Shown here: piece by piece, positions 12,511 through 28,121 of the stretch
How the letters are laid out: each line of letters opens with the position of its first letter
Position numbering within the stretch: the first letter of the stretch is position 1
Assembly (NCBI RefSeq): GCF_010728725.1
Contig: NZ_AP022606.1
Location: 372,001-436,000, forward strand
From: Mycobacterium branderi
Lineage (GTDB): Bacteria > Actinomycetota > Actinomycetes > Mycobacteriales > Mycobacteriaceae
Direction: 5' to 3'
Length of the DNA: 64,000 nt
Made by a program: the position numbers and the translations under genes
The notes under the pieces: generated by a model
What the model was told of the DNA's origin: nothing
Seen by the model: only the letters and a program-made list of their open reading frames with translations
Database searches by the model: none

Positions 12511-14261
12511 TCCAACAACATCGATACGACGTGGTGATCGTCGGCGCCGGCGGTGCCGGGATGCGGGCCGCCGTCGAGGCCGGGCCCCGGGCGCGCACCG
12601 CGGTGCTGACCAAGCTCTACCCCACCCGCAGCCACACCGGCGCCGCCCAGGGCGGCATGTGCGCGGCGCTGGCCAACGTCGAGGACGACAACTGGGAATG
12701 GCACACCTTCGACACCGTCAAGGGCGGCGATTATCTCGCCGACCAGGACGCCGTCGAGATCATGTGCAAGGAAGCCATCGACGCCGTGCTGGACCTGGAA
12801 AAGATGGGGATGCCGTTCAACCGCACCCCCGAAGGCCGCATCGACCAGCGCCGCTTCGGCGGGCACACCCGCGACCACGGCAAAGCCCCGGTGCGCCGGT
12901 CCTGTTACGCCGCCGACCGCACCGGCCACATGATCCTGCAGACGCTGTACCAGAACTGCGTCAAGCACGACGTGCAGTTCTTCAACGAGTTCTACGTCCT
13001 GGACTTGGTGCTCACCGAAACAGGCAGCGGCCCGGTGACTTCCGGCGTCGTCGCCTACGAATTGGCTACCGGCGACATCCACGTCTTCCACGCCAAGGCG
13101 GTGGTGATCGCCACCGGCGGCTCGGGCCGGATGTACAAGACCACCTCCAACGCGCACACATTGACCGGCGACGGCATCGGGATCGTGTTCCGTAAGGGAC
13201 TTCCGTTGGAGGACATGGAGTTTCACCAGTTCCACCCGACTGGCCTGGCCGGGCTGGGCATCCTGATCTCCGAGGCGGTGCGCGGCGAGGGCGGCCGGCT
13301 GCTCAACGGCGAGGGTGAGCGGTTCATGGAGCGCTACGCGCCGACGATCGTCGACCTGGCGCCGCGCGACATTGTCGCCCGCTCGATGGTGCGCGAAGTG
13401 CTGGAGGGCCGCGGCGCCGGGCCTAACAAGGACTACGTCTACATCGACGTTCGCCACCTCGGCGAAGACGTGCTCAACGCCAAGCTGCCCGACATCACCG
13501 AGTTCGCCCGCACCTACCTCGGCGTTGACCCGGTCAACGAGCTGGTCCCGGTGTATCCGACGTGTCACTACGTGATGGGCGGCATCCCGACGACGGTCAC
13601 CGGACAGGTGTTGCGCGACAACACGAACACCGTGCCCGGCTTGTATGCGGCCGGGGAATGCGCGTGCGTGTCGGTGCACGGCGCGAACCGGCTGGGCACC
13701 AATTCCCTGTTGGATATCAACGTCTTTGGCCGCCGGGCCGGTATTGCCGCCGCGAATTACGCACTGGGCCATGACTTCGTCGACATGCCACCCGAGCCCG
13801 CGGGCATGGTCGTCGGCTGGGTCTCCGACATCCTGTCCGAGCACGGCAACGAGCGCGTCGCCGACATCCGCGGCGCGCTGCAGCAGACGATGGACAACAA
13901 CGCCGCGGTGTTCCGTACCGAGGAGACGCTGAAGCAGGCTTTGACGGACATCCATGCTCTCAAGGAGCGGTACTCCCGAATCACCGTGCACGACAAGGGA
14001 AAGCGGTTCAACAGCGACCTGCTGGAAGCCATCGAGCTGGGCTTCCTGCTGGAGCTGGCCGAGGTCACGGTCGTCGGTGCGTTGAACCGCAAGGAATCTC
14101 GTGGCGGGCACGCTCGCGAGGACTACCCCAACCGCGACGACACCAACTACATGCGCCACACGATGGCCTACAAGCAGAGCAGCGGACTGCTGTCCGACAT
14201 TCGGCTGGATTTCAAGCCCGTCGTGCAGACCCGCTACGAACCCAAGGAGCGGAAGTACTGA
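12507..14261 (+). CDS. sdhA: Succinate dehydrogenase flavoprotein subunit
   Basis: The 584-aa catalytic subunit oxidises succinate to fumarate. The FAD-binding GAGGAGMR is near residue 13, the covalent-FAD His43 lies in RSHTGAAQGG, the substrate loop HQFHPTG is near 238, and the C-terminal region carries the capping arginine environment. Length is normal for Rv3318. The ATG at 12507 overlaps the sdhD stop, and the stop shares one base with the sdhB start (TGATG). Confidence 0.96.
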   Translation: MIQQHRYDVVIVGAGGAGMRAAVEAGPRARTAVLTKLYPTRSHTGAAQGGMCAALANVEDDNWEWHTFDTVKGGDYLADQDAVEIMCKEAIDAVLDLEKMGMPFNRTPEGRIDQRRFGGHTRDHGKAPVRRSCYAADRTGHMILQTLYQNCVKHDVQFFNEFYVLDLVLTETGSGPVTSGVVAYELATGDIHVFHAKAVVIATGGSGRMYKTTSNAHTLTGDGIGIVFRKGLPLEDMEFHQFHPTGLAGLGILISEAVRGEGGRLLNGEGERFMERYAPTIVDLAPRDIVARSMVREVLEGRGAGPNKDYVYIDVRHLGEDVLNAKLPDITEFARTYLGVDPVNELVPVYPTCHYVMGGIPTTVTGQVLRDNTNTVPGLYAAGECACVSVHGANRLGTNSLLDINVFGRRAGIAAANYALGHDFVDMPPEPAGMVVGWVSDILSEHGNERVADIRGALQQTMDNNAAVFRTEETLKQALTDIHALKERYSRITVHDKGKRFNSDLLEAIELGFLLELAEVTVVGALNRKESRGGHAREDYPNRDDTNYMRHTMAYKQSSGLLSDIRLDFKPVVQTRYEPKERKY

Positions 14262-15043
14262 TGAGCTCGGTCGTCGACAAACCCGAACCCGGGGATCCGC
14301 CGCTGCCGCCGATCCCCGAGGGCGCGGTGATGGTGACGCTGAAGATCGCGCGGTTCAACCCGGAGAACCCCGACGCCGCCGGCTGGCAGAGCTTCCGGGT
14401 TCCGTGCCTGCCGAGCGACCGGCTGCTCAACCTGCTGATCTACGTCAAGAGCTATCTCGACGGGACGCTGACCTTCCGGCGCTCCTGTGCGCACGGGGTG
14501 TGCGGGTCGGACGCGATGCGGATCAACGGCGTGAACCGGTTGGCGTGCAAGGTGTTGATGCGCGACCTGCTGCCGAAAAAGCCGGGCAAGCAGCTGACCA
14601 TCACCGTCGAGCCGATCCGCGGGCTGCCGGTCGAAAAAGACCTCGTGGTCGACATGGAGCCGTTCTTCGACGCCTACCGCGCGGTGAAGCCCTACCTGAT
14701 CACCAGCGGCAACCCGCCGACCCGCGAACGCATCCAGAGCCAAACCGACCGCGCCCGCTACGACGACACCACTAAATGCATTCTGTGCGCGGCCTGCACG
14801 ACCAGCTGCCCGGTGTTCTGGAGCGAGGGTTCGTACTTCGGGCCGGCCGCGATCGTCAACGCGCACCGCTTCATCTTCGACAGCCGCGACGAGGGTGCGG
14901 CCGAGCGACTGGACATCCTCAACGAGGCCGACGGGGTGTGGCGCTGCCGCACCACGTTCAACTGCACCGAGGCCTGCCCGCGCGGCATCGAGGTGACCAA
15001 GGCCATCCAGGAGGTCAAGCGCGCGCTGATGTTCGCGCGCTAA
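14261..15043 (+). CDS. sdhB: Succinate dehydrogenase iron-sulfur subunit
   Basis: The 260-aa electron-transfer subunit has the [2Fe-2S] ligands in CAHGVCGSD plus a later Cys (near 70-90), the [4Fe-4S] motif CILCAACTTSCP near 168, and the [3Fe-4S] motif CRTTFNCTEACPRG near 228. All cluster ligands are present. Last gene of sdhCDAB. A different promoter type begins 12 nt after its stop. Confidence 0.96.
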   Translation: MSSVVDKPEPGDPPLPPIPEGAVMVTLKIARFNPENPDAAGWQSFRVPCLPSDRLLNLLIYVKSYLDGTLTFRRSCAHGVCGSDAMRINGVNRLACKVLMRDLLPKKPGKQLTITVEPIRGLPVEKDLVVDMEPFFDAYRAVKPYLITSGNPPTRERIQSQTDRARYDDTTKCILCAACTTSCPVFWSEGSYFGPAAIVNAHRFIFDSRDEGAAERLDILNEADGVWRCRTTFNCTEACPRGIEVTKAIQEVKRALMFAR

Positions 15044-15054
15044 AGGTTGCCGCT

Positions 15055-15081
15055 CGTCACACCCTGGCGGGTTGCCTCGTC
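15055..15081 (+). promoter_or_regulatory. ECF41 (SigJ-type) promoter candidate
   Basis: CGTCACA (one mismatch to TGTCACA) at 15055-15061 is followed, after exactly 16 bp, by CGTC at 15078-15081. This is the promoter pattern described for ECF41 sigma factors, TGTCACA-N16-CGTC. Transcription would begin close to the ATG at 15090. ECF41 sigma factors are typically linked to carboxymuconolactone decarboxylase genes, which is what follows. Confidence 0.55.
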
Positions 15082-15089
15082 TAACGGGT

Positions 15090-15665
15090 ATGACACAGAA
15101 AACCCGCATCGAACCGCTATCCCCCAAGCAAGCCAACCTGTTGACCCGCATCATGTACCGGGTTGCCAAGCGGCGCTTCGGTGAGGTCCCCGAACCCTTC
15201 ACCGTCGCTGCCCATCACCCGCGACTGCTGGTCGCCAACGCCGTACACGAGTCCATGCTGCAGTCCGCCTCACGCAAGCTGCCGGCGAGCGTGCGTGAGC
15301 TGGCGGTGTTTTGGACCGCCCGTACCATCGGCTGCTCGTGGTGTGTCGACTTCGGGTCGATGCTGCAGCGCCTCGACGGCCTGGACGTCGAAAGGCTCAA
15401 GAACATAGACGGTTACGCAACTTCTCCGCTTTTCACCGACGACGAGCGGGCCGCGATCGCCTACGCCGACGCGATGACCACCGATCCGCACTCCGTCACC
15501 GACGAGCAGGTCGCCGATTTACGGGCACGCTTCGGCGACGCCGGCGTGATCGAGCTGAGCTATCAGATCGGCGTAGAGAACATGCGGGCCCGGATGTATT
15601 CGGCACTCGGCATCACCGAACAGGGCTTCAATTCCGGTGATGCCTGCCGGGTGCCGTGGGCCTAG
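15090..15665 (+). CDS. Carboxymuconolactone decarboxylase/AhpD-like protein
   Basis: The 191-aa all-helical protein of the CMD/AhpD fold has the redox CxxC motif in GCSWCVDF near residue 82, preceded by the family pattern VRELAVFWTARTIG. Such proteins act as peroxidase or disulfide reductase partners, or as decarboxylases. The Cys pair favours a redox role. The start at 15090 is chosen because the ECF41-like -10 ends 8 nt upstream and the alternative 15072 start would fall inside that promoter. It is probably part of the SigJ stress response. Confidence 0.82.
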   Translation: MTQKTRIEPLSPKQANLLTRIMYRVAKRRFGEVPEPFTVAAHHPRLLVANAVHESMLQSASRKLPASVRELAVFWTARTIGCSWCVDFGSMLQRLDGLDVERLKNIDGYATSPLFTDDERAAIAYADAMTTDPHSVTDEQVADLRARFGDAGVIELSYQIGVENMRARMYSALGITEQGFNSGDACRVPWA

Positions 15666-15687
15666 CGACTCGCCGCGAAAACAGCGC

Positions 15688-15693
15688 TACAGT
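15688..15693 (+). promoter_or_regulatory. -10 element, leaderless AraC-type gene
   Basis: TACAGT ends 6 nt before the ATG at 15700, so the regulator gene is probably transcribed separately from the preceding CMD-like gene, with no 5' leader. Confidence 0.6.
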
Positions 15694-15699
15694 GACGCA

Positions 15700-16461
15700 A
15701 TGCGCGTCTGGGACCTGGGCTCGGGCCGGTTCATGGTTGCCGGCGCGTTCTCGGATCTCGCGCTCCACCATCACCCTGCCGTTCAGGTCACGGTCGGCGG
15801 GCAGGGTGTTTTAACGGTCGGCGACGCCGGTGATGCGCACGACGTCTGCCGGGTGGTCGTGGTGGCGAGCGGTGCACGCCATGCCGTGCGGTCGGATCCG
15901 GAATCCGACGCGCTGACACTGTATTTCGGGCCACATACACCGCAGGGCGATGCGCTGAACACGTTGAGCCGTAGCCGCGGTCGCCGAGGTGTGTGGATCA
16001 TCGACGACGGACAGCGACTGGCCGAGGCGACAGCCACGCTGCTCGACCGGAATGGTCCGCATGCCGCAGCCGACTTCCTCGTCGATCAGCTCCACGGAAT
16101 GCCAAACCAATGCTCCAGCGAGCCACCGACCGTCCATCCGCAGCTACGGCAAGCGATCGAAGTCGTTTCGAGCCGCGTGCCCGATCACATCGACCTGGCT
16201 TCGGTGGCGGGGGCCGTCGCGCTGTCGCCCGACTACCTCGGGCGGCTGTGCAAGCAGCAGACGGGCCTCTCGTTCTCGGCCGCCATCCGCTGGCAGCGCC
16301 TAGTGACCGCCATCGGCCACCTGGTCGACGGCCGCTCCGTCACCGATGCCGCCCACCTGGCCGGATTCGCCGACGGCTCGCACGCCAACAAAGTGTGCTG
16401 GGAGATGACCGGAGCGGCCCCACGCGAGTTCGCGCAAGCCGTTCGCAAAACCCAGATCTGA
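15700..16461 (+). CDS. AraC-family transcriptional regulator
   Basis: The 253-aa protein has an N-terminal cupin-like sensor half (LHHHPAVQVTVGGQG near 25-40, histidine-rich) and a C-terminal AraC double helix-turn-helix (about 155-250), with the typical LASVAGAVALSPDYLGRLCKQ-like first helix pair and the family signature VTDAAHLAGFADGSHANKVC. The target is unknown. It lies between the CMD-like gene and a decayed methyltransferase, any of which could be targets. Confidence 0.85.
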   Translation: MRVWDLGSGRFMVAGAFSDLALHHHPAVQVTVGGQGVLTVGDAGDAHDVCRVVVVASGARHAVRSDPESDALTLYFGPHTPQGDALNTLSRSRGRRGVWIIDDGQRLAEATATLLDRNGPHAAADFLVDQLHGMPNQCSSEPPTVHPQLRQAIEVVSSRVPDHIDLASVAGAVALSPDYLGRLCKQQTGLSFSAAIRWQRLVTAIGHLVDGRSVTDAAHLAGFADGSHANKVCWEMTGAAPREFAQAVRKTQI

Positions 16462-16507
16462 CGGATCCATACAAGCGTTCCCATCGTGGTTGACCCACGC
16501 TTGGGAC

Positions 16508-17034
16508 ATGCCCGTGATGTCACAATTCGAACGTGCCTACTGCTGCAGCGCCGCGTGGCGACTGGCCAGCTCGGCGATCGCGCGGGCACTTCGCGCCCAA
16601 CGACTGGGCCACGACATCCTGGAAATCGGCGCGGGCAGTGGCTCCGTTGCCCAACAGATCCTCTCAAAGGATCCCGAACTTGCCTGGGTGGCAATAGATA
16701 TCGACCCACACATGACGATTCGTTCGACTCCGTCGTCAGTTGTGTGATGCTGCATCACATCATCGATTGGGAACGCGCGGTCGCGGAGGTGGTACGCGTA
16801 TTGCGGCCGGGCGGAACATTCGTTGGCTATGACCTTGCCCGCACACCGCTGGCCAGTCTGTTTCGCCGCATAGACGGCTCTGCGCATATCGTGCCTCGCA
16901 AATTTCGCACCGAGTGCGCGCGACAAGGGCTCACCGTCAGCGTCCAGTCCCAACTTCTCGGCCACGTCATGCGATTCGTCGGCCGCAAAGACACCAACGT
17001 CCAGAACGGAGAAATCTCATGGCAGCACCGTTAG
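16508..17034 (+). pseudogene. Class I SAM-dependent methyltransferase, deleted and frameshifted
   Basis: The first piece (about 16508-16715) carries the SAM-binding motif DILEIGAGSGSVAQQ and ends at AIDIDPHM. The second piece, in another frame, resumes at DDSFDSVVSCVMLHHI (about 16716) and continues through VLRVLRPGGTFVGYD-type motifs to 17034. The segment that normally links motif I/II to motif IV (about 30-40 residues) is missing at the junction, so this is a real deletion rather than a single-base error. The end overlaps the esterase start by 16 nt. Confidence 0.8.
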
Positions 17035-18092
17035 GTACCCGCACTAAGGCAGCAGTCCTTCGCACGCTATTCAAGTTGCCCACGCCGGCACGCCGCCTAC
17101 TGGCAGGCCCGCCGGTCCGAATCGACGGGCAGGAACAAGCGCTCGATGCCCAGCTCATGATCCGGATCAAAAACCGTTCCGGCTCAGATGTTTTCACCGA
17201 CCCGATTGAGGAGGCGCGGATACGCTACGACGGCCTCCCGCGACTCCTCGGGTACCAATCGCCTTTACCTGTCGCGACGCGGGAGATCGTTATCCCCGCC
17301 GAGCACGGGTACATCCCGGCCACCTTGTACACCCCTGCCGGCCTCGCAACCCCGTCGGGCCTGCTGCTGTACTACCACGGCGGCGGCTTCTCCGTCGGCT
17401 CACGCATCAGCCACGACCCAGTCGCCCGTTTCTTTGCGATCAACGCCGCCGTGCAAGTGCTGTCGGTCGAGTATCGACGCGCGCCCGAGCACCGGTTCCC
17501 CGCTGCTGTAGAGGACGCGATGACCGCCTTCGACTATGCGTGCCAGCAGGCCGCTGACCTGGGTGCCGATCCGCACCGCATCGCGGTCGGCGGAGACAGC
17601 GCCGGCGGCAATCTTGCAGCGGTCACCGCGCAGCAGGCGACGCGACGTGGCGGTCCGCTTCCGAGGTTTCAGCTGCTGATGTATCCCCCGACCGACCTGA
17701 GCACCCGTCGGCCCTCGCGTGACCTTTTCAACCACAGCTCCACCTTCACCGACCAGAATTTGCAGTGGGCGCTGAGCAATTACCTGCCGCCGGGAACCGA
17801 TCTGAGCGATCCGCGATTGTCCCCACTGCACGGCGACGTCAAGGGCTTGCCGCCCGCCTATATCGCCACCGCGGGTTTTGATCCGCTGCGCGACGAGGGC
17901 GAGGCATACGCGAATAAACTGCGTGCCGGCGGAGTCCCGGTAGTGCTGAGCCGCCAGGCCGACCTACCCCACGCATTCCTCAACTTCGTGGCCCTCGGGG
18001 GTCGGTTCGCCCAAGCCGCCGCCGAGGCGGCCGAGGCGCTGAAACTCGGCCTCGCCGTCGCTACCGAGACCGCAGTGGAGAACCGGTACTAA
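17019..18092 (+). CDS. Alpha/beta hydrolase, hormone-sensitive-lipase family esterase
   Basis: The 357-aa carboxylesterase has the HSL oxyanion motif YYHGGGFSVGS near residue 115, the nucleophile in GGDSAGGN near 192, the acid D in FDPLRDEGE near 288 and the histidine in LPHAFLNF near 318. It resembles the Lip esterases of mycobacteria, acting on short acyl esters. The ATG at 17019 has an upstream ACGGAG. Its stop is 2 nt from the convergent PPOX gene stop. Confidence 0.88.
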   Translation: MAAPLGTRTKAAVLRTLFKLPTPARRLLAGPPVRIDGQEQALDAQLMIRIKNRSGSDVFTDPIEEARIRYDGLPRLLGYQSPLPVATREIVIPAEHGYIPATLYTPAGLATPSGLLLYYHGGGFSVGSRISHDPVARFFAINAAVQVLSVEYRRAPEHRFPAAVEDAMTAFDYACQQAADLGADPHRIAVGGDSAGGNLAAVTAQQATRRGGPLPRFQLLMYPPTDLSTRRPSRDLFNHSSTFTDQNLQWALSNYLPPGTDLSDPRLSPLHGDVKGLPPAYIATAGFDPLRDEGEAYANKLRAGGVPVVLSRQADLPHAFLNFVALGGRFAQAAAEAAEALKLGLAVATETAVENRY

Positions 18093-18094
18093 TG

Positions 18095-18577
18095 CTAACC
18101 AGCAGGCGTGATTTCGATGTAGGCCATCGGGATGTGCAGCGCTTCGCTGCTTTTGTCGAGGCTGTGCTCCAACGCCTTCATGGGCCTGCTCCAGTTCGCC
18201 GCAATCACCTCGTTCGCATGCGCGTGTTCGGACTCCGGCAGGATTCGGGCGACCCCGGCGACGGCCGGGCCCTTCGGTTTCCCGCGCAGATTGCTCGGTG
18301 CGACGACGACGCGCGGATTGTTGCGGATCCGCTTGACCTTGCCGGTGGAGGCATCGGTGCGCACGTAGATCTTCCCGTCGGCGACACCATGATTGATCGG
18401 GCTCGGCATCGCCTCGCCAGAACGCTTGAACGTCACGAGCACGATCTGACGCGTCTTGTCGAAACCGGTGAAATCGGCGCCCTGAGGATCACCAAGGTCG
18501 AAGGCGCTGCGATGGCGCAGCTTGTCCATGCCGCGAAACATCAACGCATTCATCTTCTTTACGGCGTTACTGGTCAT
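18095..18577 (-). CDS. PPOX-class F420/FMN-dependent protein
   Basis: The 160-aa split-barrel flavin/F420-binding family protein has the core strands IVLVTFKRSGEAMPSPI and KIYVRTDASTGKVKRIRNNPRV, the latter a common F420-family pattern. The start at 18577 is preceded by a GAAGGG ribosome site. An in-frame ATG at 18598 would overlap sigJ more. It overlaps the sigJ 3' end by 11 nt and follows it in the same direction, so it is co-transcribed with sigJ; small oxidoreductases are typical neighbours of ECF41 sigma factors. Confidence 0.8.
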   Translation of the reverse strand: MTSNAVKKMNALMFRGMDKLRHRSAFDLGDPQGADFTGFDKTRQIVLVTFKRSGEAMPSPINHGVADGKIYVRTDASTGKVKRIRNNPRVVVAPSNLRGKPKGPAVAGVARILPESEHAHANEVIAANWSRPMKALEHSLDKSSEALHIPMAYIEITPAG

Positions 18578-19490
18578 GCTCACCCTTCCATTCGTCACGC
18601 AGCGGAGAGCCGGTGAACTTGTCGGGATTGGCGATATCCCATATCGCGCAAACCTTTCCGTCGCGCACCGTCATCGCGGTGATGCGGGGCATCATCTCCC
18701 AATACTCGCCGTATCCCGGCGCCCCCGCGGTATAGGTGCCCAATTCGCCGTTGACCAGCGCCAGCTGGTTCGCCGCCACGAACGACGGCCCGTAGCGTTG
18801 CGCCAACCCGAACAGGAAGCGCGCCACCTTGTCGGCCCCGTGGATGACCCTGGCGGCCGTCGGCGCCCTGCGGTTGGAGTCGCCGGTGAACGTCACGTCC
18901 GGGTGCAGCAGGGCCACCGCACCGGCCATGTCGCCGGACGCGATGGCCGCCATCAGCTTGCCCACCACCTCGTTGTGGGTCGGGTCCGGTTCCGGTGGCG
19001 GCGCGTCGGCGACGGCCTTGCGGGCCCGCGACGCCAGCTGCCGGGCGGCGGCCGCACTGGTGCCCAGCACCTCGGCGACTTCGGGGAACGGCACCGAGAA
19101 CCCGTCGTGCAGCACGAACGCCACCCGCTGGTCGGGGGAAAGCCGCTCCAGCACCACCATCGCGACAAATCGCGCGTCCTCCCCGGCGACGACGGTACAC
19201 AACGGGTCGGCGCCGTCGAAACCGGTCACCACCGGCTCGGGCAGCCACTGGCCGACATAGGTCTCGCGACGACGCGCCGCCGACCGCAACCGGTCCAGCG
19301 CGAGTCGGCTCACCACCGTGGTCAACCACGCTCGCAGGTCCGCAATATCGGTATCGGCGGCATTCCACCGAAGCCAGGCTTCTTGCACCATGTCCTCGGC
19401 GTCGGCCACCGTCCCGGTCAGCCGATACGCGACCGCCAGCAGATGCGGTCGCAACGCTTCGAATTCGTCGACCTGCTGGGCCGAGGTCAT
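18567..19490 (-). CDS. sigJ: ECF41-type RNA polymerase sigma factor SigJ
   Basis: The 307-aa extracytoplasmic-function sigma factor has region 2 (RLTGTVADAEDMVQEAWLRW) near residues 23-45, region 4 (LSPDQRVAFVLHDGFSVPFPEVAEVL) near 115-145, and a SnoaL-like C-terminal domain (about 175-300) that replaces a separate anti-sigma factor. The linker motif WLPEP, diagnostic of ECF41, is present near 83. It corresponds to Rv3328c. The ATG at 19490 (one codon after an in-frame GTG) sits 6 nt after a TACGCT -10. It is divergent from the aminotransferase. Confidence 0.94.
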   Translation of the reverse strand: MTSAQQVDEFEALRPHLLAVAYRLTGTVADAEDMVQEAWLRWNAADTDIADLRAWLTTVVSRLALDRLRSAARRRETYVGQWLPEPVVTGFDGADPLCTVVAGEDARFVAMVVLERLSPDQRVAFVLHDGFSVPFPEVAEVLGTSAAAARQLASRARKAVADAPPPEPDPTHNEVVGKLMAAIASGDMAGAVALLHPDVTFTGDSNRRAPTAARVIHGADKVARFLFGLAQRYGPSFVAANQLALVNGELGTYTAGAPGYGEYWEMMPRITAMTVRDGKVCAIWDIANPDKFTGSPLRDEWKGEHDQ

Positions 19491-19496
19491 CACCCG

Positions 19497-19502
19497 AGCG
19501 TA
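19497..19502 (-). promoter_or_regulatory. -10 element, leaderless sigJ
   Basis: On the minus strand TACGCT ends 6 nt before the ATG at 19490. It overlaps the TAACGT (19501-19506) that may serve the divergent aminotransferase, so the two promoters probably interfere. No ECF41-type site precedes sigJ, so autoregulation by SigJ is not evident. Confidence 0.5.
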
Positions 19503-19516
19503 ACGTTCGCGGCACG

Positions 19517-20866
19517 ATGACCGAGAACCTCTGGCTCCACTTTGCCCGGCACGGCCCCGGGATCACCCCACCGATCATCGCCCGCGGCGAGGGTGTCCGG
19601 ATCTTCGACGACCGCGGCAAAAGCTACCTCGACGCGCTATCCGGATTGTTCGTCGTGCAAGTCGGCCATGGACGCGACGAGCTCGCCGAGGCCGCCGCCA
19701 AACAAGCCCGCACACTGGCCTACTTCCCGCTGTGGTCGTATGCCACCCCGCCCGCGATCGAGCTCGCCGAGCGCGTCGCCCACTATGCGCCGGGCGATCT
19801 GAACCGGGTCTTTTTCACCACCGGCGGCGGCGAAGCCGTCGAGACCGCGTGGAAACTCGCCAAGCAGTACTTCAAGCTGACCGGCAAACCCGGGAAATAC
19901 AAAGTGATTTCACGGGCCGTCGCCTACCACGGCACGCCGCAGGGCGCACTGGCCATCACCGGCGTGCCGGCACAGAAGGCGCCGTTCGAGCCGCTGACAC
20001 CGGGCGCGGTGAAAGTACCCAACACCAACTTCTACCGCGCACCCGAGCCGTTCAACACCGACCTCAAGGCCTTCGGCCAGTGGGCGGCCGACCGTATCGG
20101 CGAGGCAATCGAATTCGAGCGACCCGACACCGTCGCCGCGGTGTTTCTCGAACCCGTGCAGAACGCCGGCGGCAGCATCCCGCCGCCGCCCGGCTACTTC
20201 GAACGAGTCCGCCAGATCTGCGACGACTACGACGTGCTGCTGGTCTCTGACGAGGTCATCTGCGCCTTCGGCCGGATCGGGTCGATGTTCGCCTGCGACG
20301 ACTTCGGTTACGTGCCAGACATCATCACCTGCGCCAAGGGATTGACGTCGGGCTACTCGCCGCTCGGCGCGATGATCGCCAGCGACAGGTTGTTCGAGCC
20401 CTTCAACAACGGCACGACGACGTTCCCGCACGGCTACACGTTCGGCGGTCACCCGGTGTCGGCGGCGGTCGCGCTGGTCAATCTCGACATCTTCGAGCGC
20501 GAAGGCCTGTGCGACCGCGTCAAACACCAAGCGCCCCAACTTGGCAGCACCTTAGAGCGGCTGTACGACCTGCCCATCGTCGGCGATGTCCGCGGGGAGG
20601 GCTACTTCTACTCGATCGAACTGGTCAAAGACCAGACCAGCCGCCAGACCTTCACCGCCGACGAACGCCGCCGGCTGCTCCCTGCCTTGTCTTCGGCGCT
20701 GTACGACGCCGGACTGTACTGCCGCATCGACGACCGCGGCGACCCGGTGATCCAGCTGGCGCCGCCGCTGATCAGCGGCCAGGCCGAGTTCGACGAGATC
20801 GAGTCGATCCTGCGCGCAGTGTTGTCTGGCCGCGAAAGTGCAACTGGCGACGTGTTTCTCGAGTAA
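19517..20866 (+). CDS. Class III PLP-dependent aminotransferase
   Basis: The 449-aa omega-aminotransferase family enzyme has the PLP phosphate cup [11 protein letters not shown] near residue 98, the Asp of [11 protein letters not shown] near 248 and the Schiff-base lysine in [14 protein letters not shown] near 277. It is the positional counterpart of Rv3329, between sigJ and dacB1. It transfers an amino group from an omega-amino acid or diamine to a keto acid; the physiological substrate is unknown. The N-terminus [15 protein letters not shown] supports the ATG at 19517. Confidence 0.9.
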
Positions 20867-20893
20867 CACCGTCGCGGAATGCACTTTCGCGGC
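20829..20893. repeat. Compound hairpin element C
   Basis: A perfect 14-bp inverted repeat (20829-20842 with 20880-20893, core CGAAAGTGCA/TGCACTTTCG) encloses a nested imperfect stem (GCGACgTGTT pairing with AACAcCGTCGC). It covers the 3' end of the aminotransferase gene and stops just before the SMP-30-like gene. Outer AGTG arms and an inner ACGTGT loop resemble the elements at 31465, 38757 and 51279. Confidence 0.65.
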
Positions 20894-20896
20894 AAG

Positions 20897-21907
20897 ATGC
20901 GCATTGTGAGCAAACCACGTATCGACCCGGTGCGGTGGCAACCGCCACCGGTCGAGCCGCTGCCCGATGTCCCGTCGCCGGACGTCACCATCGTCCCGCT
21001 GCCGGGCAAGGGCCCCGAAGACGTCGTCGCCGACGCTGCCGGCCACATCTTGGCGGGCCTGGAAGACGGTTGCATCGTGCGGATTTCGCCCGACGGCGGC
21101 GAGCCCGTCGTCGTCGCCGACACCGGAGGCCGGCCACTGGGCCTGCACGTGGGCCGCGACGGGCGAGTGCTCATCTGCGACAGCTACAAAGGCCTGCTGG
21201 CATTGGACGCCGACAGCGGCGCGTTGGACGTGCTGGCCGATTCGGTGGCGGGCAGACCGCTGATGTTCTGCTCCAACGTCACCGAAACATCCGACAGCAC
21301 AATCTATTTCACCGAATCGACGCGCGACTTCCGGTTCGAGCACTACACCGCCGCGGTCATCGAGGCACGCGGACGCGGCGGCCTGTTCGAGCTCGGCGCC
21401 GACGGCACCGTTACTCAGCTGCTCGACGGGCTGTACTTCGCCAACGGGGTGACGCCGACGGCCGACGAGTCGGCGCTGGTCTTCGCCGAAACCCAGGCAC
21501 GACGGCTCTCGAAGTACTGGCTTTCCGGCCCGCAAGCCGGGTCGGTGACCCCGCTGGCCAGCCATCTGCCCGGGATGCCCGACAACATCTCCACCGGCGC
21601 CGACGGCCGGATCTGGGTCGCCATGGTGGCCGAGGTCAACACCGCGCTGGAATGGCTGGTGCCGCGGGCGCCGGTTCTGCGCAAGCTGGCGTGGCGGCTG
21701 CCCGAGCGGCTGCAACCGCAAATCAAGCCCGAAGTGTGGGCGGTCGCCTTCGACCCCGACAGCGGCCACGTCGTCGCCGGTCTGCGCACCAAACATCCCG
21801 ATTTCGGCGTCGTCACCGGGGTCGTGGAGAGCGCCGGCAGGCTGTGGTTGGGCACGATCAACTACCCGGCGGTTGCCTACGTGGACGTGGCGGCCACCAG
21901 CGTGTAA
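20897..21907 (+). CDS. SMP-30/gluconolactonase/strictosidine synthase-like beta-propeller
   Basis: The protein of about 336 aa has repeated blade motifs ([16 protein letters not shown] near 50, [23 protein letters not shown] near 90, [17 protein letters not shown] near 230), as in six-bladed Ca-dependent lactonases. The motif [10 protein letters not shown] carries the usual metal-proximal Asn. The start is uncertain: ATG 20879, ATG 20897 and GTG 20906 are all in frame. 20897 is taken because it clears the hairpin. The substrate is unknown; a lactonase or esterase role is the family default. Confidence 0.78.
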
Positions 21908-21990
21908 GCCGAAGTCTTAGTAACTTCTGCAACATTAGTCACAGCGCGGCTCCGCGGAAAAACGCCGCCCATCGCCTAATCTGCACGACG

Positions 21991-23208
21991 ATGGCCCTCT
22001 TACGATCCGCATTGTGCCTGGCAGGGGCGCTTTTCCTGGCGGCTGCGCCGAGCATGCCCGCCGCCGCTGCCGAGCCCAACGCCGCGACCGGCACCTGCCC
22101 GTACCGGGTGACCACGCCACCGGCGGTCGACTCCTCGGAGGTGCCGCAGGCCGGCGATCCGCCGGCTCCGCTGCCGGTACCCGCCGCGCCGGTCGGCGGC
22201 AACGCGCTGGGTGGCTGCGGCGTCATCGCGGCACCCGATACGCCGCCGGTACCCGGCGACGTCTCCGCCGAGGCATGGCTGGTCGCCGACCTGGACAGCG
22301 GCGCCGTCCTCGCCGCCAAAGACCCGCACGGTCGTCACCGCCCGGCCAGCGTCATCAAGGTGCTGGTCGCGATGGCGTCGCTTAACGAGCTGAGCCTCAA
22401 CAAGACGGTGGACGGCACCCCGGAGGACGCCGCCGCGGAGGGCACCAAGGTCGGCGTCGCGCCCGGCGGCAGCTACACGATCAACCAATTGCTGCACGGG
22501 CTGCTGATGCATTCGGGCAACGACGCCGCGCACGCACTGGCCATGCAACTCGGCGGCATGCCGGTGGCGTTGGAGAAGATCAACACGCTGGCCCGCAAGC
22601 TCGGCGGCGGCGACACCCGCGTCGCGACTCCCTCCGGGCTGGACGGGCCCGGCATGAGCACGTCGGCGTATGACATCGGGCTGTTCTACCGATACGCCTG
22701 GCAGAACCCGACATTCGCCGACATCGTGGCCACCCGCACCTTCGACTTCCCCGGCCATGCCGACCATCCGGGGTACGAACTGGAGAACGACAACCAGCTG
22801 CTCTACCACTACCCCGGCGCGCTGGGCGGCAAGACCGGCTACACCGACGACGCCGGGCAGACGTTCGTGGGCGCGGCCAACCGGGACGGGCGGCGGCTGA
22901 TGGCGGTGCTGCTGCACGGCACCCGCCAGCCGATAGCGCCGTGGGAACAGGCCGCGCACCTGCTCGACTACGGGTTCGCCACCTCCCCCGGCACCCGGGT
23001 GGGAACGCTGATCGAGCCCGACCCCGCGCTGGTGGCCGCCAAGCCTGATGCCGCCGACGACGGCACCACCAACCGGGCCGCGCCCATCGTGCCGCCCGCC
23101 GACGCGCTGCCGGTGCGGGTGGGCGTGGCGGTCATCGGAACGATCATCGTGTTCGGCTTGATGATGGCCGCACGGTCGCTGAACCGCCGACCCCAGCGCG
23201 AGTGCTGA
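21991..23208 (+). CDS. dacB1: D-alanyl-D-alanine carboxypeptidase
   Basis: The 405-aa low-molecular-weight penicillin-binding protein trims pentapeptides of peptidoglycan. It has an N-terminal signal (about residues 1-27), a proline-rich segment, and the catalytic triad motifs SVIK near 120, SGN near 173 and KTG near 283. A C-terminal membrane anchor lies at about 375-395. Length equals Rv3330. The ATG at 21991 is preceded by TAATCT 8 nt upstream, consistent with a nearly leaderless start. Confidence 0.95.
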
Positions 23209-23444
23209 TGGCAACCCCCGTCGTCTCCGCTTCGACCGAGCGCTGGACCAGCGCCAATGGATTCGGCGCGTGCGAGTGGTGGCTACTCTCGACGAGCACC
23301 GGCCTGCTGCCGCTGGCCGTTGTCATCGCCACCGCGCTGGGAATCTTGCCGCATCGCTCATCGTGGGCGGGCGGCCGCAACGCTGCCGAAGACGTCGCCC
23401 GCGACCCGCGAGATGCGCTGAGCGACGGCCCGATCAGCCACTAA
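23208..23444 (+). CDS. Small hypothetical membrane protein
   Basis: The 78-aa protein begins at an ATG that shares one base with the dacB1 stop (TGATG), which argues for translational coupling. One hydrophobic segment (about 25-47, from WWLLSTSTG to ALGIL) is followed by a hydrophilic tail. No recognised domain. It could assist or anchor DacB1, but that rests only on coupling. Confidence 0.5.
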   Translation: MATPVVSASTERWTSANGFGACEWWLLSTSTGLLPLAVVIATALGILPHRSSWAGGRNAAEDVARDPRDALSDGPISH

Positions 23445-23454
23445 GCTTGACGGT

Positions 23455-23793
23455 GTGACTGACGCCCTCTACGACGACGGCGGCCTTCGGCTTGATGAAG
23501 ATGGGGTTACGATCCGGCGCTACTACTTCCCCTGGGCCGGGCCAAAGCGGTTCGGCTACAACGCAATCCGTCATGTCGAGGTGCGACCGCTGAACTGGCT
23601 GAGCGGAAAGGGCCGCGGATGGGGAACAGCACATCCGGGCTATTGGTTTCCACTCGACATGCGCCGGCACGGCAAAAGCACCCTGCTGATATTCGATCTC
23701 GGCAGCCGGGTCAAGCCGTGCGTCACCCCTGACGAACCCGATCACGTGATGCAATTGCTTCGCAGCCGGGCTTCTGTTGGCGGTGACGGCTGA
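23455..23793 (+). CDS. Small PH-domain-like hypothetical protein
   Basis: The 112-aa protein has alternating beta-strand patterns (VTIRRYYFPWAGPKRFGYNAIRHVEV) resembling bacterial PH-like domains that start with a short pleckstrin-type sheet. No membrane segment or catalytic motif. The GTG at 23455 lies 7 nt after TAAGCT (23442-23447), a possible leaderless promoter that overlaps the stop of the preceding small gene. Confidence 0.6.
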   Translation: MTDALYDDGGLRLDEDGVTIRRYYFPWAGPKRFGYNAIRHVEVRPLNWLSGKGRGWGTAHPGYWFPLDMRRHGKSTLLIFDLGSRVKPCVTPDEPDHVMQLLRSRASVGGDG

Positions 23794-23844
23794 GCTCGCC
23801 GATAAGCAGCCGGCTTGCCGCTCGGGGACCTACCATCCTCTGAT

Positions 23845-23991
23845 ATGCAGCGGCTCAGCGGTCTCGACGCCAGTTTCCCCTACCTCGAAACATCCACCAC
23901 ACCACTGCATGAGCTGGAGTTGCGGGTCAAGGGAATACCCGAGTTCGGTCGCGCACTCGACGAATTGCTCGCCGCCAAGCCGCGTCGGTGA
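23845..23991 (+). pseudogene. Remnant of a wax ester synthase/diacylglycerol acyltransferase
   Basis: This 48-codon frame begins like the mycobacterial WS/DGAT family (MQRLSGLDASFPYLET, with the LDASF motif), then jumps to a short piece reading LELRVKGIPEF and stops. A functional enzyme needs about 450 residues including HHxxxDG, which is absent. It is best read as the collapsed 5' end of a tgs-type gene after internal deletion. It ends by overlapping the sugI start codon (GTGA). Confidence 0.65.
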
Positions 23992-25352
23992 GCGGCAAGG
24001 GATTACTAATCGGTCTCGCCGCGGCCAGCCTCGGGGTCATCTACGGCTACGACATCTCCAACATCGCCGGCGCGCTATTGTTCGTCACCGACGATTTCGG
24101 CCTGTCCACCGGCCAACAGGAGCTGGTGACGACGGCGGTGGTGGTCGGTGAAATCGCCGGCTCGCTGGCCGGCGGAGTATTGGCCAACGCGATTGGACGC
24201 CAACGCACGATGGTGCTGGTGGCCGCGGGGTACGCGGCTTTCGCGCTGGCCGGCGCGGTGTCGGTGTCGGTGCCGATGCTGCTTGCGGCGCGGTTGCTGC
24301 TGGGCGTGACGATCGGCGTCTCGGTGGTGGTGGTTCCCGTGTTCGTCGCGGAATCCACGCCGGCCAGAGTCCGCGGCTCGCTATTGGTCGCCTATCAGGT
24401 GGCGACCGTCGTCGGGATTATTTGCGGCTACCTTGCCGCCTATCTGCTGGCCGGTCTGCACGCCTGGAGATTGATGCTGGGTCTGGCCGCGCTGCCGGCG
24501 GTGCTGACGATGCTGCTTTTGCTGCGGATGCCGGACACCGCACGGTGGTATGCCTTCAAAGGCCGCACCGAGGAAGCCCGCCGGGTGTTGCAGCGGGTGG
24601 AACCGGACACCGATGTCGACCGTGAACTCGCGGAGATCCGCAGCGCGCTAAGGGAAGAAAGCTCCGGCACGGTAGCGGAGATGCTACGACCGCCTTACCT
24701 GCGCGCCACCGCCTTTGTGATCGTGCTCGGGTTTTTCATCCAGATCACCGGCATCAACGCGATCGTGTATTACAGCCCGCGGCTGTTCGCAGCGATGGGG
24801 TTCACGGGCAACTTCGCGCTGCTGATTCTTCCGGCCTTGGTGCAGACCGCCGCACTAGTCGCGGTGCTCGTCTCGCTGGTTCTCGTCGACCGGCTGGGGC
24901 GGCGCCCAATTCTGTTGACTGGCATCGCAATGATGATCGCCGCCGATGTAATGCTTACCGGTGTGTTTGCGACGGGTTCCGGGCCGATGTTCGGATTGGT
25001 CGGGGTGTTGATGTTCACGGTCGGGTTCACCTCTGGTTTCGGCGCACTGGTCTGGGTGTTTGCCGGCGAAAGCTTCCCGACGCGGCTTCGTTCGATGGGT
25101 TCGAGCGTCATGCTCACCGCGAACCACACCGCCCACGCCGTCGTCGCCGCGATATTTCTGACGATATTGCAAACAGTCGGCGGGGCAACAACTTTCGCAG
25201 GGTTGGCCAGCCTTGCGTTGGCCGCGTTCGCCTTCGTCTACCGGTTTGCGCCGGAGACCAAGGGCCGCCAGCTCGAGGAGATCCGGCACTTCTGGGAAAA
25301 CGGCGGCCGCTGGCCCGACGAGACGCCGACGGGTGCGCGGACATGCCCCTGA
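23988..25352 (+). CDS. sugI: Sugar-transporter-family MFS permease
   Basis: The 454-aa major facilitator protein has 12 predicted membrane helices. Sugar-porter signatures are visible: GYDISNIAGAL in helix 1 (near 22), GRQRTMVL after helix 2, PVFVAESTPARVRGSL (the PESPR-like motif) near 112, DRLGRRPILL near 300, and PETKGRQLEEI at the end. Counterpart of Rv3331. It is somewhat shorter than the M. tuberculosis protein. The GTG start overlaps the WS/DGAT remnant. It is followed by nagA with a 10-nt overlap, so uptake of an amino sugar is plausible but inferred. Confidence 0.9.
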   Translation: MSGKGLLIGLAAASLGVIYGYDISNIAGALLFVTDDFGLSTGQQELVTTAVVVGEIAGSLAGGVLANAIGRQRTMVLVAAGYAAFALAGAVSVSVPMLLAARLLLGVTIGVSVVVVPVFVAESTPARVRGSLLVAYQVATVVGIICGYLAAYLLAGLHAWRLMLGLAALPAVLTMLLLLRMPDTARWYAFKGRTEEARRVLQRVEPDTDVDRELAEIRSALREESSGTVAEMLRPPYLRATAFVIVLGFFIQITGINAIVYYSPRLFAAMGFTGNFALLILPALVQTAALVAVLVSLVLVDRLGRRPILLTGIAMMIAADVMLTGVFATGSGPMFGLVGVLMFTVGFTSGFGALVWVFAGESFPTRLRSMGSSVMLTANHTAHAVVAAIFLTILQTVGGATTFAGLASLALAAFAFVYRFAPETKGRQLEEIRHFWENGGRWPDETPTGARTCP

Positions 25353-26455
25353 TCGCAGCCGGCACAACGGTTCTCGGGCAGCAGGTCTGTCGGCCCGGGT
25401 GGGTGGACGTGTCCGGCCCGCGCATCGTCGACTGCGGGCCCGGTTTGCCGCCGCGCCCACCCGACGTTGACCTGCCCGACGCCGTGCTGGTGCCGGGATT
25501 CGTCGACATGCACGTGCACGGCGGCGGCGGAGCCTCCTACAGCGGACCGGACATCGTGCGGGCGGCCGAGTTTCACCGCCGCCACGGCACTACCACGACA
25601 CTGGCCAGCCTGCTCACCGCGTCGCCCGGCGATCTTCTGACCAGCGTGCGGGCGCTCGCGGAGGCAACCCGGGCGGGCACCGTCGCGGGCATCCACCTCG
25701 AGGGGCCGTGGCTGAGTGCACAGCATTGCGGAGCACACGACCCCAGGCAGTGCCGCGACCCGCAGCCGGCCGAGATCGACGCGCTGCTTGCCGCAGGCGG
25801 CGGCGCGATCCGCATGGTCACCCTGGCACCGGAACGCCCCGGCGGCGACGACGCCATCACGCGTTTCGCCGACGCGGGAGTGGTTGTGGCCGTGGGACAC
25901 ACGGATGCCAGCTACGAGCAGACGCGGCACGCGGTCGCGCTCGGGGCGACGGTCGGCACCCATCTGTTCAACGCGATGCGGCCGCTGCACCACCGCGAAC
26001 CGGGGCCGGTCCTCGCGCTGCTACAGGATGCCCGAGTGACCGTCGAGCTGATCGCCGACGGCGTGCACGTCCATCCCGCCGTGCTGCATGCGGTGATCGA
26101 GGCGGCAGGACCCGAGCGAGTGGCGCTGGTCACCGACGCCACCGCCGCGGCGGGCCGGGGCGACGGCTCGTTTCGCCTGGGAACACTCGACGTCGACGTC
26201 GTCTCCGGCGTGGCGCGGGTGCGCGGCACGTCGACCATCGCGGGCAGCACCGCCACCATGGATCAGCTCTTCCGTACGGTGGCGGCCGAGGCCGGGCTGG
26301 GCGCAGCGGTGCAGATGACGTCGACGACGCCGGCCCGCGCGCTGGGACTCGGCGAGGTCGGCCTCTTGCGCGCGGGTCTTTACGCCAATCTCGTTGTGCT
26401 GGACCGGGATCTAGAAGTGACAGCCGTGATGGCGGGCGGGCAGTGGCTCGGTTGA
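25343..26455 (+). CDS. nagA: N-acetylglucosamine-6-phosphate deacetylase
   Basis: The 370-aa amidohydrolase removes acetyl from GlcNAc-6-P in cell-wall sugar recycling. Metal and substrate motifs are VDMHVHGGGG near residue 54, the Glu of GIHLEGPWLS near 118, VAVGHTDASYEQ near 185, HLFNAMRPLHHREPG near 208, and the catalytic Asp in LVTDATAAAG near 263. It overlaps sugI by 10 nt (same operon) and the convergent methyltransferase gene by 45 nt at its 3' end. Confidence 0.93.
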   Translation: MPLIAAGTTVLGQQVCRPGWVDVSGPRIVDCGPGLPPRPPDVDLPDAVLVPGFVDMHVHGGGGASYSGPDIVRAAEFHRRHGTTTTLASLLTASPGDLLTSVRALAEATRAGTVAGIHLEGPWLSAQHCGAHDPRQCRDPQPAEIDALLAAGGGAIRMVTLAPERPGGDDAITRFADAGVVVAVGHTDASYEQTRHAVALGATVGTHLFNAMRPLHHREPGPVLALLQDARVTVELIADGVHVHPAVLHAVIEAAGPERVALVTDATAAAGRGDGSFRLGTLDVDVVSGVARVRGTSTIAGSTATMDQLFRTVAAEAGLGAAVQMTSTTPARALGLGEVGLLRAGLYANLVVLDRDLEVTAVMAGGQWLG

Positions 26456-26986
26456 CGCGTCCCAACCCGAGATTCGCGGTATCCACCGCGGAACATTGTG
26501 ACGGTAGGTGTCGTATTCGTCCCCGTAGCGTTCGGCGAGATGCGGCTCTTCCCAGAACCGGATGGCGGTCGCCTGAAACGCCAGGAAGACCGCGAACCAG
26601 GCCAGCAGCGACGCCGACGCGGTAACCGCCGCTTCGCCCAGCAGGATGCACAGCACGCCGGTGATCATCGGATTGCGCACATGCCGGTACGGCCCGCGCA
26701 CCACGAGGTGAACCGGTTCGCCCATCACGTTGCCCAGGCCGAGGGTGCCCTCGCCTACCCGGTCGAACAGCACCACCGTCCAGATCAGCATCCCCACCCC
26801 GCCGGTGATCAGCAACACGCCGGCGACCGCCAGCACGATGCCCAGCCCAGAACCGAAATCCGGCCCGCGCACGTCGCCGCCGCTCACGAGTAGCGCCGGG
26901 ACGACGAGCGTGACCGTGGCGGGGAACAGCAGCACCGAGATCGCATGCCGCCACCACAGCCGTCGTTCGCGGGTGCCTGCCATCAT
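26411..26986 (-). CDS. Isoprenylcysteine carboxyl methyltransferase-family membrane protein
   Basis: The 191-aa membrane protein has four to five helices and the ICMT/PEMT C-terminal signature RGPYRHVRNPMITG near residue 98 and FWEEPHLAERYGDEYDTYRHNVPRWIPR near 145-172, which bind SAM. The substrate is unknown in bacteria. The start has GAGGAGGA 4 nt upstream; a second ATG follows directly. It is divergent from the tetR-like gene across two matching operators, so it is the likely repressor target. Confidence 0.85.
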   Translation of the reverse strand: MMAGTRERRLWWRHAISVLLFPATVTLVVPALLVSGGDVRGPDFGSGLGIVLAVAGVLLITGGVGMLIWTVVLFDRVGEGTLGLGNVMGEPVHLVVRGPYRHVRNPMITGVLCILLGEAAVTASASLLAWFAVFLAFQATAIRFWEEPHLAERYGDEYDTYRHNVPRWIPRISGWDASTEPLPARHHGCHF

Positions 26987-27002
26987 CTCGTCCTCCTCAA
27001 CT

Positions 27003-27061
27003 TCAACGCCTGCTGAAGAACTAACGTACGCCGCGGCGGCTCATAGGTCAACGCTTGTTGA
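27003..27061. promoter_or_regulatory. Pair of TetR-type operators
   Basis: Two near-identical 14-bp sites, TCAACGCCTGCTGA (27003-27016) and TCAACGCTTGTTGA (27048-27061), lie 45 bp apart in the divergent gap. The second is a palindrome TCAAC-N4-GTTGA, and the first deviates by one base. One covers the start region of the methyltransferase promoter, the other abuts the -10 of the tetR gene. This is the layout expected for autoregulation and repression of the neighbour. Confidence 0.6.
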
Positions 27062-27063
27062 AG

Positions 27064-27069
27064 TATGCT
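27064..27069 (+). promoter_or_regulatory. -10 element of the tetR-like gene
   Basis: TATGCT ends 7 nt before the ATG at 27077, indicating a leaderless mRNA. The downstream operator ends 2 bp before this hexamer, so bound repressor would block RNA polymerase. Confidence 0.6.
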
Positions 27070-27076
27070 GCCGGGC

Positions 27077-27670
27077 ATGTCAGAGGGCCGCCGCACGGGC
27101 CGGTGGCGCACCGGTCAGCAGAGCAGACAGCGCATTGTCGACGCCGCGCGCGAACGTTTCATGCACGACGGGTATGAGCGGGCCACTGTCCGCGCAATCG
27201 CCGCCGACGCGGGCGTCGACGTTGCGATGGTCTACTACTTCTTCGGCAATAAAGAGGGGCTGTTCGCCGCGTCGGCCCTGACGGGCCCCGAACACCCGCT
27301 GCATCAGCTGGCCACGCTGCTCGACGAAAGCAGCGAGCAGATCGGCCCGAGGCTGGTACGCCGCTTCCTGGAACACTGGGACCGGGGCGACACGTTCGAG
27401 CCGCTGCTCACCGTGTGGAAGTCGGCCGCTATACAACCCTTGGCGCGAAAAGTGTTGTACGACAGTCTCGCCGGCCCCATCGCCAACCGGGTCGCCGCCG
27501 AATTCGGGGTAGCCGACGCTGAGCTGCGAGCCGAGTTGGTGGCCAGTCACCTGATGGGCTTGGCATTCGCCCGCTACCAGCTGCGCATCGAGCCGCTCGC
27601 CTCGGCGTCCGTCGACGACTTGGTCGATTGGATCGGACCGACGATGCAGCGCTATCTCACCGGTACGTGA
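27077..27670 (+). CDS. TetR-family repressor
   Basis: The 197-aa protein has an N-terminal helix-turn-helix (about residues 15-60: RIVDAARERF, VRAIAADAGVDVAMVYYFFGNKEGL) and a helical ligand domain ending in a TetR C-terminal pattern. The ATG at 27077 rather than 27065 fits the leaderless promoter and the basic N-terminus MSEGRRTGRWR. It most likely represses itself and the divergent ICMT-family gene through the paired operators. The ligand is unknown. Confidence 0.88.
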   Translation: MSEGRRTGRWRTGQQSRQRIVDAARERFMHDGYERATVRAIAADAGVDVAMVYYFFGNKEGLFAASALTGPEHPLHQLATLLDESSEQIGPRLVRRFLEHWDRGDTFEPLLTVWKSAAIQPLARKVLYDSLAGPIANRVAAEFGVADAELRAELVASHLMGLAFARYQLRIEPLASASVDDLVDWIGPTMQRYLTGT

Positions 27671-27678
27671 CGACGGCA

Positions 27679-27705
27679 TGTCACATGTGCGTGCGCTGCG
27701 GCGTC
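27679..27705 (+). promoter_or_regulatory. ECF41 (SigJ-type) promoter, exact match
   Basis: TGTCACA at 27679-27685, exactly 16 bp, then CGTC at 27702-27705 is a perfect match to the described ECF41 promoter pattern. It lies in the 73-bp gap before the SnoaL-like gene, starts 8 nt after the tetR stop, and would yield a leader of about 30 nt containing the gene's ribosome site. Confidence 0.65.
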
Positions 27706-27743
27706 TTATCTAGGAATCACGCCCGATCCGGAGGTCCCAAGAA

Positions 27744-28121
27744 ATGTCCGTGCACCCGTTCCGCGCCGTTGTCGAAGCCGGCGAAGTCAGCACCATCGGA
27801 AGACTGTTCACCGACGACGTGGTGCTGCACAGCCCCGTCGCACACCGCCCCTACACGGGCCGGGAGACGGTCGCGGCCATCGTCTCGGCGGTCGCAACCG
27901 TGCTGGACGGCTTTCACTTCGAGAGGGAAATCAGCGCCGACACCGCGGCTTTGATGTTCCGCGCCACGGTCGACGGCCTGGACATCCAGGGCTGTGACTT
28001 CATCCACAGACGGAACGACGGCTTGATCGACGAGTTGACCGTGATGGTCCGGCCGCTCAAGGCCGCTACGGTGTTCGCCGAGAAGATGGCCGCGGAACTC
28101 GCAAAAGGCGGGCGCCCGTAG
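27744..28121 (+). CDS. SnoaL/NTF2-like protein
   Basis: The 125-aa single-domain protein of the NTF2 cone fold has motifs LFTDDVVLHSPVAHRPYTGRETV near 22-45 and the last strands DGLIDELTVMVRPLKA near 95, typical of SnoaL-like polyketide cyclase/isomerase relatives. Catalytic residues cannot be assigned. GGAGG lies 9 nt before the ATG. An exact ECF41-type promoter precedes it; SigJ itself carries a SnoaL-like domain, so this small protein may bind the same kind of ligand. Confidence 0.78.
   Translation: MSVHPFRAVVEAGEVSTIGRLFTDDVVLHSPVAHRPYTGRETVAAIVSAVATVLDGFHFEREISADTAALMFRATVDGLDIQGCDFIHRRNDGLIDELTVMVRPLKAATVFAEKMAAELAKGGRP

Follow-up and report, generated by a model that had tools for sequence, protein, structure and literature searches.

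Two promoter-like sites of the pattern TGTCACA-N16-CGTC lie in a 64,000-nucleotide stretch of the Mycobacterium branderi genome (G000:C1:372001-436000, in a genome of 5.98 Mb), referred to here as the window, which also encodes SigJ, an extracytoplasmic function (ECF) sigma factor. We consider it probable that both sites are working ECF41-type promoters of one small redox regulon under SigJ, with the second site perhaps shared. Site 1 precedes a gene for an AhpD/CMD-like protein (cmd, after carboxymuconolactone decarboxylase) and site 2 a gene for a free SnoaL_2 protein (snoaL). The argument starts from what is observed directly, namely the sites, their conservation and spacing in relatives, the link between site 1 and sigJ, and the lack in M. 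branderi of a third gene, doxX.

The gene sigJ (18567-19493, reverse strand) encodes 308 amino acids comprising sigma2, a WLPEP linker, sigma4 and a C-terminal SnoaL_2-like domain. Against the SigJ model of NCBIfam (cut-off 271) the protein reaches 422 bits; it also matches the Pfam models of regions 2 and 4, and the linker typical of ECF41 factors is present in its translation. Residues 179-282 reach 26.8 bits against SnoaL_2 (Pfam: PF12680), slightly below the cut-off of 27, and we count them as the SnoaL-like extension of about 100 residues expected of this group. The best match among solved structures is 5xe7 (491 bits, residues 5-300), which we take to be SigJ from Mycobacterium tuberculosis. 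The ECF41 hallmarks from which the original prediction set out are thus present, and by its sequence SigJ is an ECF41-type factor of the SigJ subfamily.

Site 1 (15055-15081, forward strand) consists of a -35 element CGTCACA (15055-15061), a 16-nucleotide spacer and a -10 element CGTC (15078-15081). Site 2 (27679-27705, forward strand) has TGTCACA at 27679-27685 and CGTC at 27702-27705, again at N16. The proposed match counts, one mismatch at the former and none at the latter, are correct, and both sites do fall in short gaps before start codons, with 8 nucleotides from CGTC to the ATG at 15090 and 38 to the ATG at 27744.

A search of 148 genomes for cmd returned matches in 131 at E<=1e-20, three of which hold only distant paralogues, leaving 128 orthologues, of which 127 were examined together and that of G089 separately. 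Site 1 is kept at all 118 cmd loci of sigJ-carrying genomes. In a repeat of the count without any requirement on the -10 letters (the first scan had demanded CGTC), GTCAC-N16-CGTC stands at 117 of these 118 loci, the other, L133, having N17. The distance from CGTC to ATG is 8 nucleotides in 112 of the 117 and 9 in five; four of them carry two -35 mismatches, and the spacer positions are variable. Since the first -35 base is C in 45 of the 118 rows (T in 68, G in 5; one row is a duplicate genome), the single mismatch of site 1 represents a common variant. At no more than one mismatch, the site occurs in 113 of the 118 upstream regions, against 5 of 2360 shuffles, and in 78 of 80 cmd loci from named records, against 2 of 1600; the latter set comprises the best 80 of 238 loci and probably overlaps the 148-genome set, so it is not independent.

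The presence of sigJ closely follows that of cmd. Both genes are found in 118 of the 148 genomes, sigJ alone in one (G147), cmd alone in 10 and neither in 19, where G076 and G133 (sigJ in pieces) and G086 (sigJ cut by a contig end) were counted as positive. The 10 cmd-only genomes are nine members of one clade plus G089 (locus L229), a small genome where both sigJ and cmd are fragmented and the -10 element has become CGCC. A sigJ gene lies within 79 of the 80 named cmd loci, in keeping with the nearby COE-type partner gene of ECF41 factors, and often adjoins cmd directly in convergent orientation (e.g., in G030, less than 20 nucleotides apart). In the window they stand 2.9 kb apart, and genes of AraC type, for an esterase and for the PPOX protein lie between. 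On this evidence, site 1 is an ordinary ECF41 partner promoter.

The product of cmd (15090-15665, forward strand; 191 amino acids) carries a CxxC motif (GCSWC), as had been noted, and its best named match is from Mycobacterium shimoidei (94%). Membership of the decarboxylase family did not hold up: the protein scores 19.4 bits against CMD (Pfam: PF02627; cut-off 23) and is likewise below the cut-off of TIGR01926, so "CMD/AhpD-like" is a distant assignment and not a family membership. Among its solved-structure matches are AhpD, a debrominase and proteins that are CMD-family or peroxidase-related. At ECF promoters RNA begins a few bases past the -10 element and, at site 1, CGTC stands only 8 nucleotides before the ATG; the mRNA start is therefore predicted at or adjoining 15090, and the cmd mRNA is probably leaderless, beginning at its start codon. 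Leaderless mRNAs are described as common in mycobacteria. Upstream of the ECF41 promoter, 17 of the 127 cmd loci (e.g., L011, L013-L016 and L020-L022, 45-74 nucleotides before the start) carry a pair of T[TC]CTTG[GA] repeats 11 nucleotides apart, which is absent at the window locus (L010) and is possibly an activator site.

The gene behind site 2, snoaL (27744-28121, forward strand; 125 amino acids), encodes a SnoaL_2 protein, as predicted (38 bits, cut-off 27), and homologues occur in 116 of the 148 genomes at E<=1e-15, few of them at this place. Of the nine loci of relatives that were scanned (L041-L049), L041-L046, which are the closest six, retain the site; in five of these the promoter is followed by doxX and then by snoaL as the second gene of the operon, and in L045 it directly precedes snoaL. 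The DoxX protein of G071 (L239) is a member of DoxX_2 (Pfam: PF13564; 76.3 bits, cut-off 26.3), and no DoxX match was found in the M. branderi genome at E<=1e-12. The G071 doxX leader, CCCGATCCGGAGGTC, recurs identically in the window at 27722-27736 (forward strand), including the GGAGG of the ribosome-binding site at 27730-27734, between site 2 and the snoaL ATG. Comparison with these relatives identifies site 2 as a DoxX_2-SnoaL operon promoter; doxX is missing from that operon in M. branderi, where snoaL would now use the doxX promoter and ribosome-binding site from an mRNA start predicted near 27713. We infer that doxX was lost from this genome rather than never gained.

The association of the motif with doxX extends beyond these operons. 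DoxX matches were found in 31 of the 148 genomes and 30 loci were fetched, 21 of them with full-length genes at least 47% identical. In 19 of these 21, the site is present at N16 with no more than one mismatch, a fit seen in 10 of 2100 shuffles. Of the other two, L364 carries the site at N17, and L351 departs from it by two mismatches. The nine loci L365-L373 are without the site (2 to 5 mismatches); L365, 55% identical and aligned only from residue 16, was excluded from the 21, and with it the count would be 19 of 22. Conservation before orthologues, by which the original prediction proposed to be judged, is accordingly found at both cmd (118 of 118 sigJ genomes) and doxX. Among 251 sampled genomes of the family, nine had DoxX matches at E<=1e-25, four of them within the genus; the seven matches in the five genomes outside it all have at least 3 mismatches to the site. 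In L241 (by Pfam) and L395 (by likeness), DoxX is encoded divergently from an enoyl-CoA hydratase gene, with exact motifs facing both ways.

The chief rival to this reading holds that site 1 is SigJ's and that the main reader of site 2 is a different ECF41 paralogue, for instance the oxidoreductase-linked one, the shared -35 element mimicking one regulon. Here SigJ's standing as sole regulator is in question, and a number of observations weigh against control of both sites by SigJ. The M. branderi genome contains four SigJ-like matches at E<=1e-40, three besides SigJ itself, and one of these paralogues is encoded behind an oxidoreductase gene with its own promoter, an exact TGTCACA-N17-CGTC. 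In L354, L359, L360, L362 and L363, DoxX is encoded divergently from another ECF41-like factor, and each of these five loci has sites at no more than one mismatch in both directions, which makes DoxX a repeated ECF41 partner or target in the genus and not only SigJ's. In G093, which is without sigJ, doxX adjoins another ECF41-like factor and still has an exact site, so this type of site does not need SigJ. The cmd site is retained in G076 and G133, where sigJ is in pieces; three of the nine scanned snoaL loci (L047-L049) have no ECF41-type site before snoaL; the rows counted for conservation are related genomes and not independent events; and none of 210 regions upstream of sigJ (in overlapping sets, with several genomes repeated) contains an ECF41-type site at one mismatch or fewer, for which reason autoregulation of sigJ through this motif was dropped.

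Two observations speak for SigJ at site 2 all the same: eight of the nine closest doxX genes share a contig with sigJ, about 6-22 kb apart, and site 2 has CGTC as its -10 element, where in relatives the paralogues linked to the oxidoreductase apparently read TGTC, although these promoters were placed by their best match to TGTCTTGAGGG, so that the uniformity of TGTC is partly built in. We regard the paralogue account as unlikely. SigJ itself likely drives site 2, as the best but not the sole candidate for it, and a mini-regulon likely results. Of the two-promoter SigJ regulon originally proposed, then, both promoters stand as conserved and ECF41-type, and exclusive control by SigJ is not supported, given the four SigJ-like matches.

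The sigJ-less clade also bears on how firmly these promoters are tied to SigJ. The idea that its nine genomes (L100-L108) had lost the cmd promoter proved wrong: all nine have TGTCACA-N16-CATC at the same distance from the ATG, with the -35 element and spacing kept and the -10 element changed to CATC. In the tree of cmd sequences they group together as one clade (a single change; SH-aLRT, an approximate likelihood ratio test, 99; quick method), so the loss of sigJ was one event and not nine, and their retained -35 element and spacing indicate that use of the cmd promoter outlived SigJ, a further point against control of both sites by SigJ. After CATC, six have TTGAG, two TAGAG and one TCAAG; the oxidoreductase-linked ECF41 promoters of relatives mostly have TTGAG after the -10 element, judged by per-column counts. 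Eight of the nine CATC promoters score nearer to the oxidoreductase-linked than to the sigJ type, as do 2 of the 117 sigJ-type promoters, in a scoring that is partly circular. No second gene with the CATC variant was found in this clade, each genome having exactly one such site, the cmd promoter. One reading is that the promoter was handed over to another factor.

A second alternative holds that site 2 is a decaying remnant, left after the loss of doxX before a snoaL gene that is no longer useful. It would fit the absence of doxX and the TetR-family gene (27065-27670, forward strand) that lies directly upstream of site 2 and is absent at that place in G071. Decay is, however, hard to reconcile with an exact site and an intact ribosome-binding site, with an open snoaL reading frame whose nonsynonymous and synonymous divergence from G071 (dN 0.079, dS 0.315) does not isolate the time since the loss, or with G047, which likewise has the promoter directly before snoaL; we give this account little credence. 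That both sites are chance matches is refuted in practice. Shuffling the window yields two sites at no more than one mismatch in 49 cases out of 100, and window statistics alone prove nothing, but across many genomes the sites are conserved at fixed places before orthologues, at frequencies far exceeding those in shuffled copies of these upstream regions. The original prediction's claim on chance was too strong for the window, where an exact site occurs in 5 of 100 shuffles (mean 0.05).

The suggestion that the free SnoaL protein echoes the ligand-binding fold of the sigma factor was dropped. In a comparison at the sequence level, BLASTP gave E 0.73 between the two; the best solved-structure matches of the snoaL product are isomerase-like, and it is doxX that adjoins the promoter in five of the six closest relatives.

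With SigJ at both sites, as we prefer, the regulon could work as follows. SigJ would be held by its own SnoaL-like C-terminal domain and then released by a putative signal. RNA polymerase with freed SigJ would bind site 1 and start the leaderless cmd mRNA there, while at site 2 SigJ holoenzyme, perhaps along with a second ECF41 factor, that encoded at G000:C1:4981763-4982608, would start an mRNA with a short leader. In relatives, this promoter would drive a DoxX-like membrane protein and then the SnoaL protein. The redox role of such a regulon we infer from CxxC, DoxX and PPOX.

Beyond cmd and doxX, the motif precedes genes of several further kinds, seen in 15 regions picked by eye among the exact sites listed in other genomes. 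These include small CxxC genes scoring above the CMD cut-off of Pfam (L382, L383), genes for a hydrophobic protein (L386-L388; 9 of 24 loci of this kind at no more than one mismatch) and for a second hydrophobic kind (L392, L393). For the membrane-type proteins of L387 and L393, no match to a Pfam family was found. Three of the 15 regions (L389, L390, L394) have no gene start behind the site, and L384 and L391 are ambiguous. The motif also precedes a SigI-type gene that passes the SigI model cut-off (L385) and occurs in 5 of 30 SigI-type loci. The other 25 (L402, L403-L426) carry GTAACT-N16-CGTC directly before their own ATG (GTAACTT in 24), likely a leaderless self-promoter; among them is M. 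branderi SigI itself (L402, G000:C1:1588433-1589287; 423.9 bits against a SigI cut-off of 317), with a -35 element TGTAACT. Within the M. branderi genome there are nine exact matches at spacers of 15-17, of which, by eye, only site 2 and that of the oxidoreductase-ECF41 operon clearly precede a gene. A less strict pattern matched the genome at 168 places and its reversed control at 127, so that this pattern cannot define a regulon in one genome.

Taken together, these loci allow a wider account, which we offer tentatively and hold at somewhat less than even. Mycobacterial ECF41 factors may run a multi-operon regulon of membrane and thiol-redox functions, comprising AhpD/CMD-like genes, DoxX with or without SnoaL, a small hydrophobic protein outside known families and, in some species, sigI, with several of the mRNAs leaderless. 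After the loss of sigJ in one clade, the cmd promoter would have been re-tuned, with CATC replacing CGTC next to a discriminator resembling the one used by the oxidoreductase-linked ECF41 factor, and taken over by another factor.

Around sigJ, the gene of an F420-dependent PPOX-class oxidoreductase (18095-18577, reverse strand; ATG at 18577) does overlap the 3' end of sigJ, as had been stated, by 11 nucleotides (18567-18577). Its product scores 119 bits against TIGR03666 (cut-off 84.9), which identifies the F420-dependent type, and the two genes probably share one transcript. PPOX homologues are present in 37 of the collected cmd or sigJ loci, some probably representing one genome counted twice. 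No anti-sigma gene was found near sigJ among nine proteins scanned with Pfam, a scan that did not cover the flanking aminotransferase-like gene and was not aimed at anti-sigma models. Site 1 lies 11 nucleotides downstream of the stop codon of an iron-sulfur protein gene (14261-15043; Pfam Fer2_3), presumably sdhB. By eye, the list of open reading frames also shows a methyltransferase-like fragment at 16486-17034, between the AraC-type and esterase genes.

Site 2 belongs to a conserved and apparently undescribed DoxX(-SnoaL) target class. We found no description of DoxX with ECF41 factors in the literature searched; the tables of a 2021 ECF reclassification may list DoxX as a neighbour. Such a class would provide a second output for SigJ-like factors, with both outputs pointing to redox balance, and the sigJ-less clade offers a natural experiment on the transfer of a promoter between sigma factors.

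Comparison with known systems places site 1 within a familiar pattern and site 2 outside it. ECF41 activity is controlled by the factor's own C-terminal domain (PMC8999054; PMC3426412). By footprinting, the founding study reportedly saw no conserved members of the regulon other than the genes for COE and ECF41 proteins, and it settled on one target only (PMC3426412). The pairs Ecf41Bli-ydfG and Ecf41Rsp-RSP_0606 described there (Wecke et al., 2012) share with SigJ-cmd the WLPEP linker, the C-terminal extension, a CxxC CMD-like partner and TGTCACA-N16-CGTC before that partner, the spacing at both window sites lying within N16(±1). They differ in that here DoxX, alone or together with SnoaL, makes up a second conserved class of targets, in that the cmd start is predicted to be leaderless where theirs has a leader of 22/23 nucleotides, and in that cmd and sigJ stand apart in M. 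branderi. RpoE9 of Sinorhizobium meliloti, also an ECF41 factor, likewise has a CxxC CMD-like target with an ECF41 promoter, reportedly its single target, whereas at least two conserved target classes are seen here (PMC6180224). SigJ of Mycobacterium tuberculosis belongs to the same named subfamily and is the best structural match to the M. branderi protein, and differs in its partners, being reportedly linked to sigI (PMC4821874), where SigJ of M. branderi would act on cmd and snoaL.

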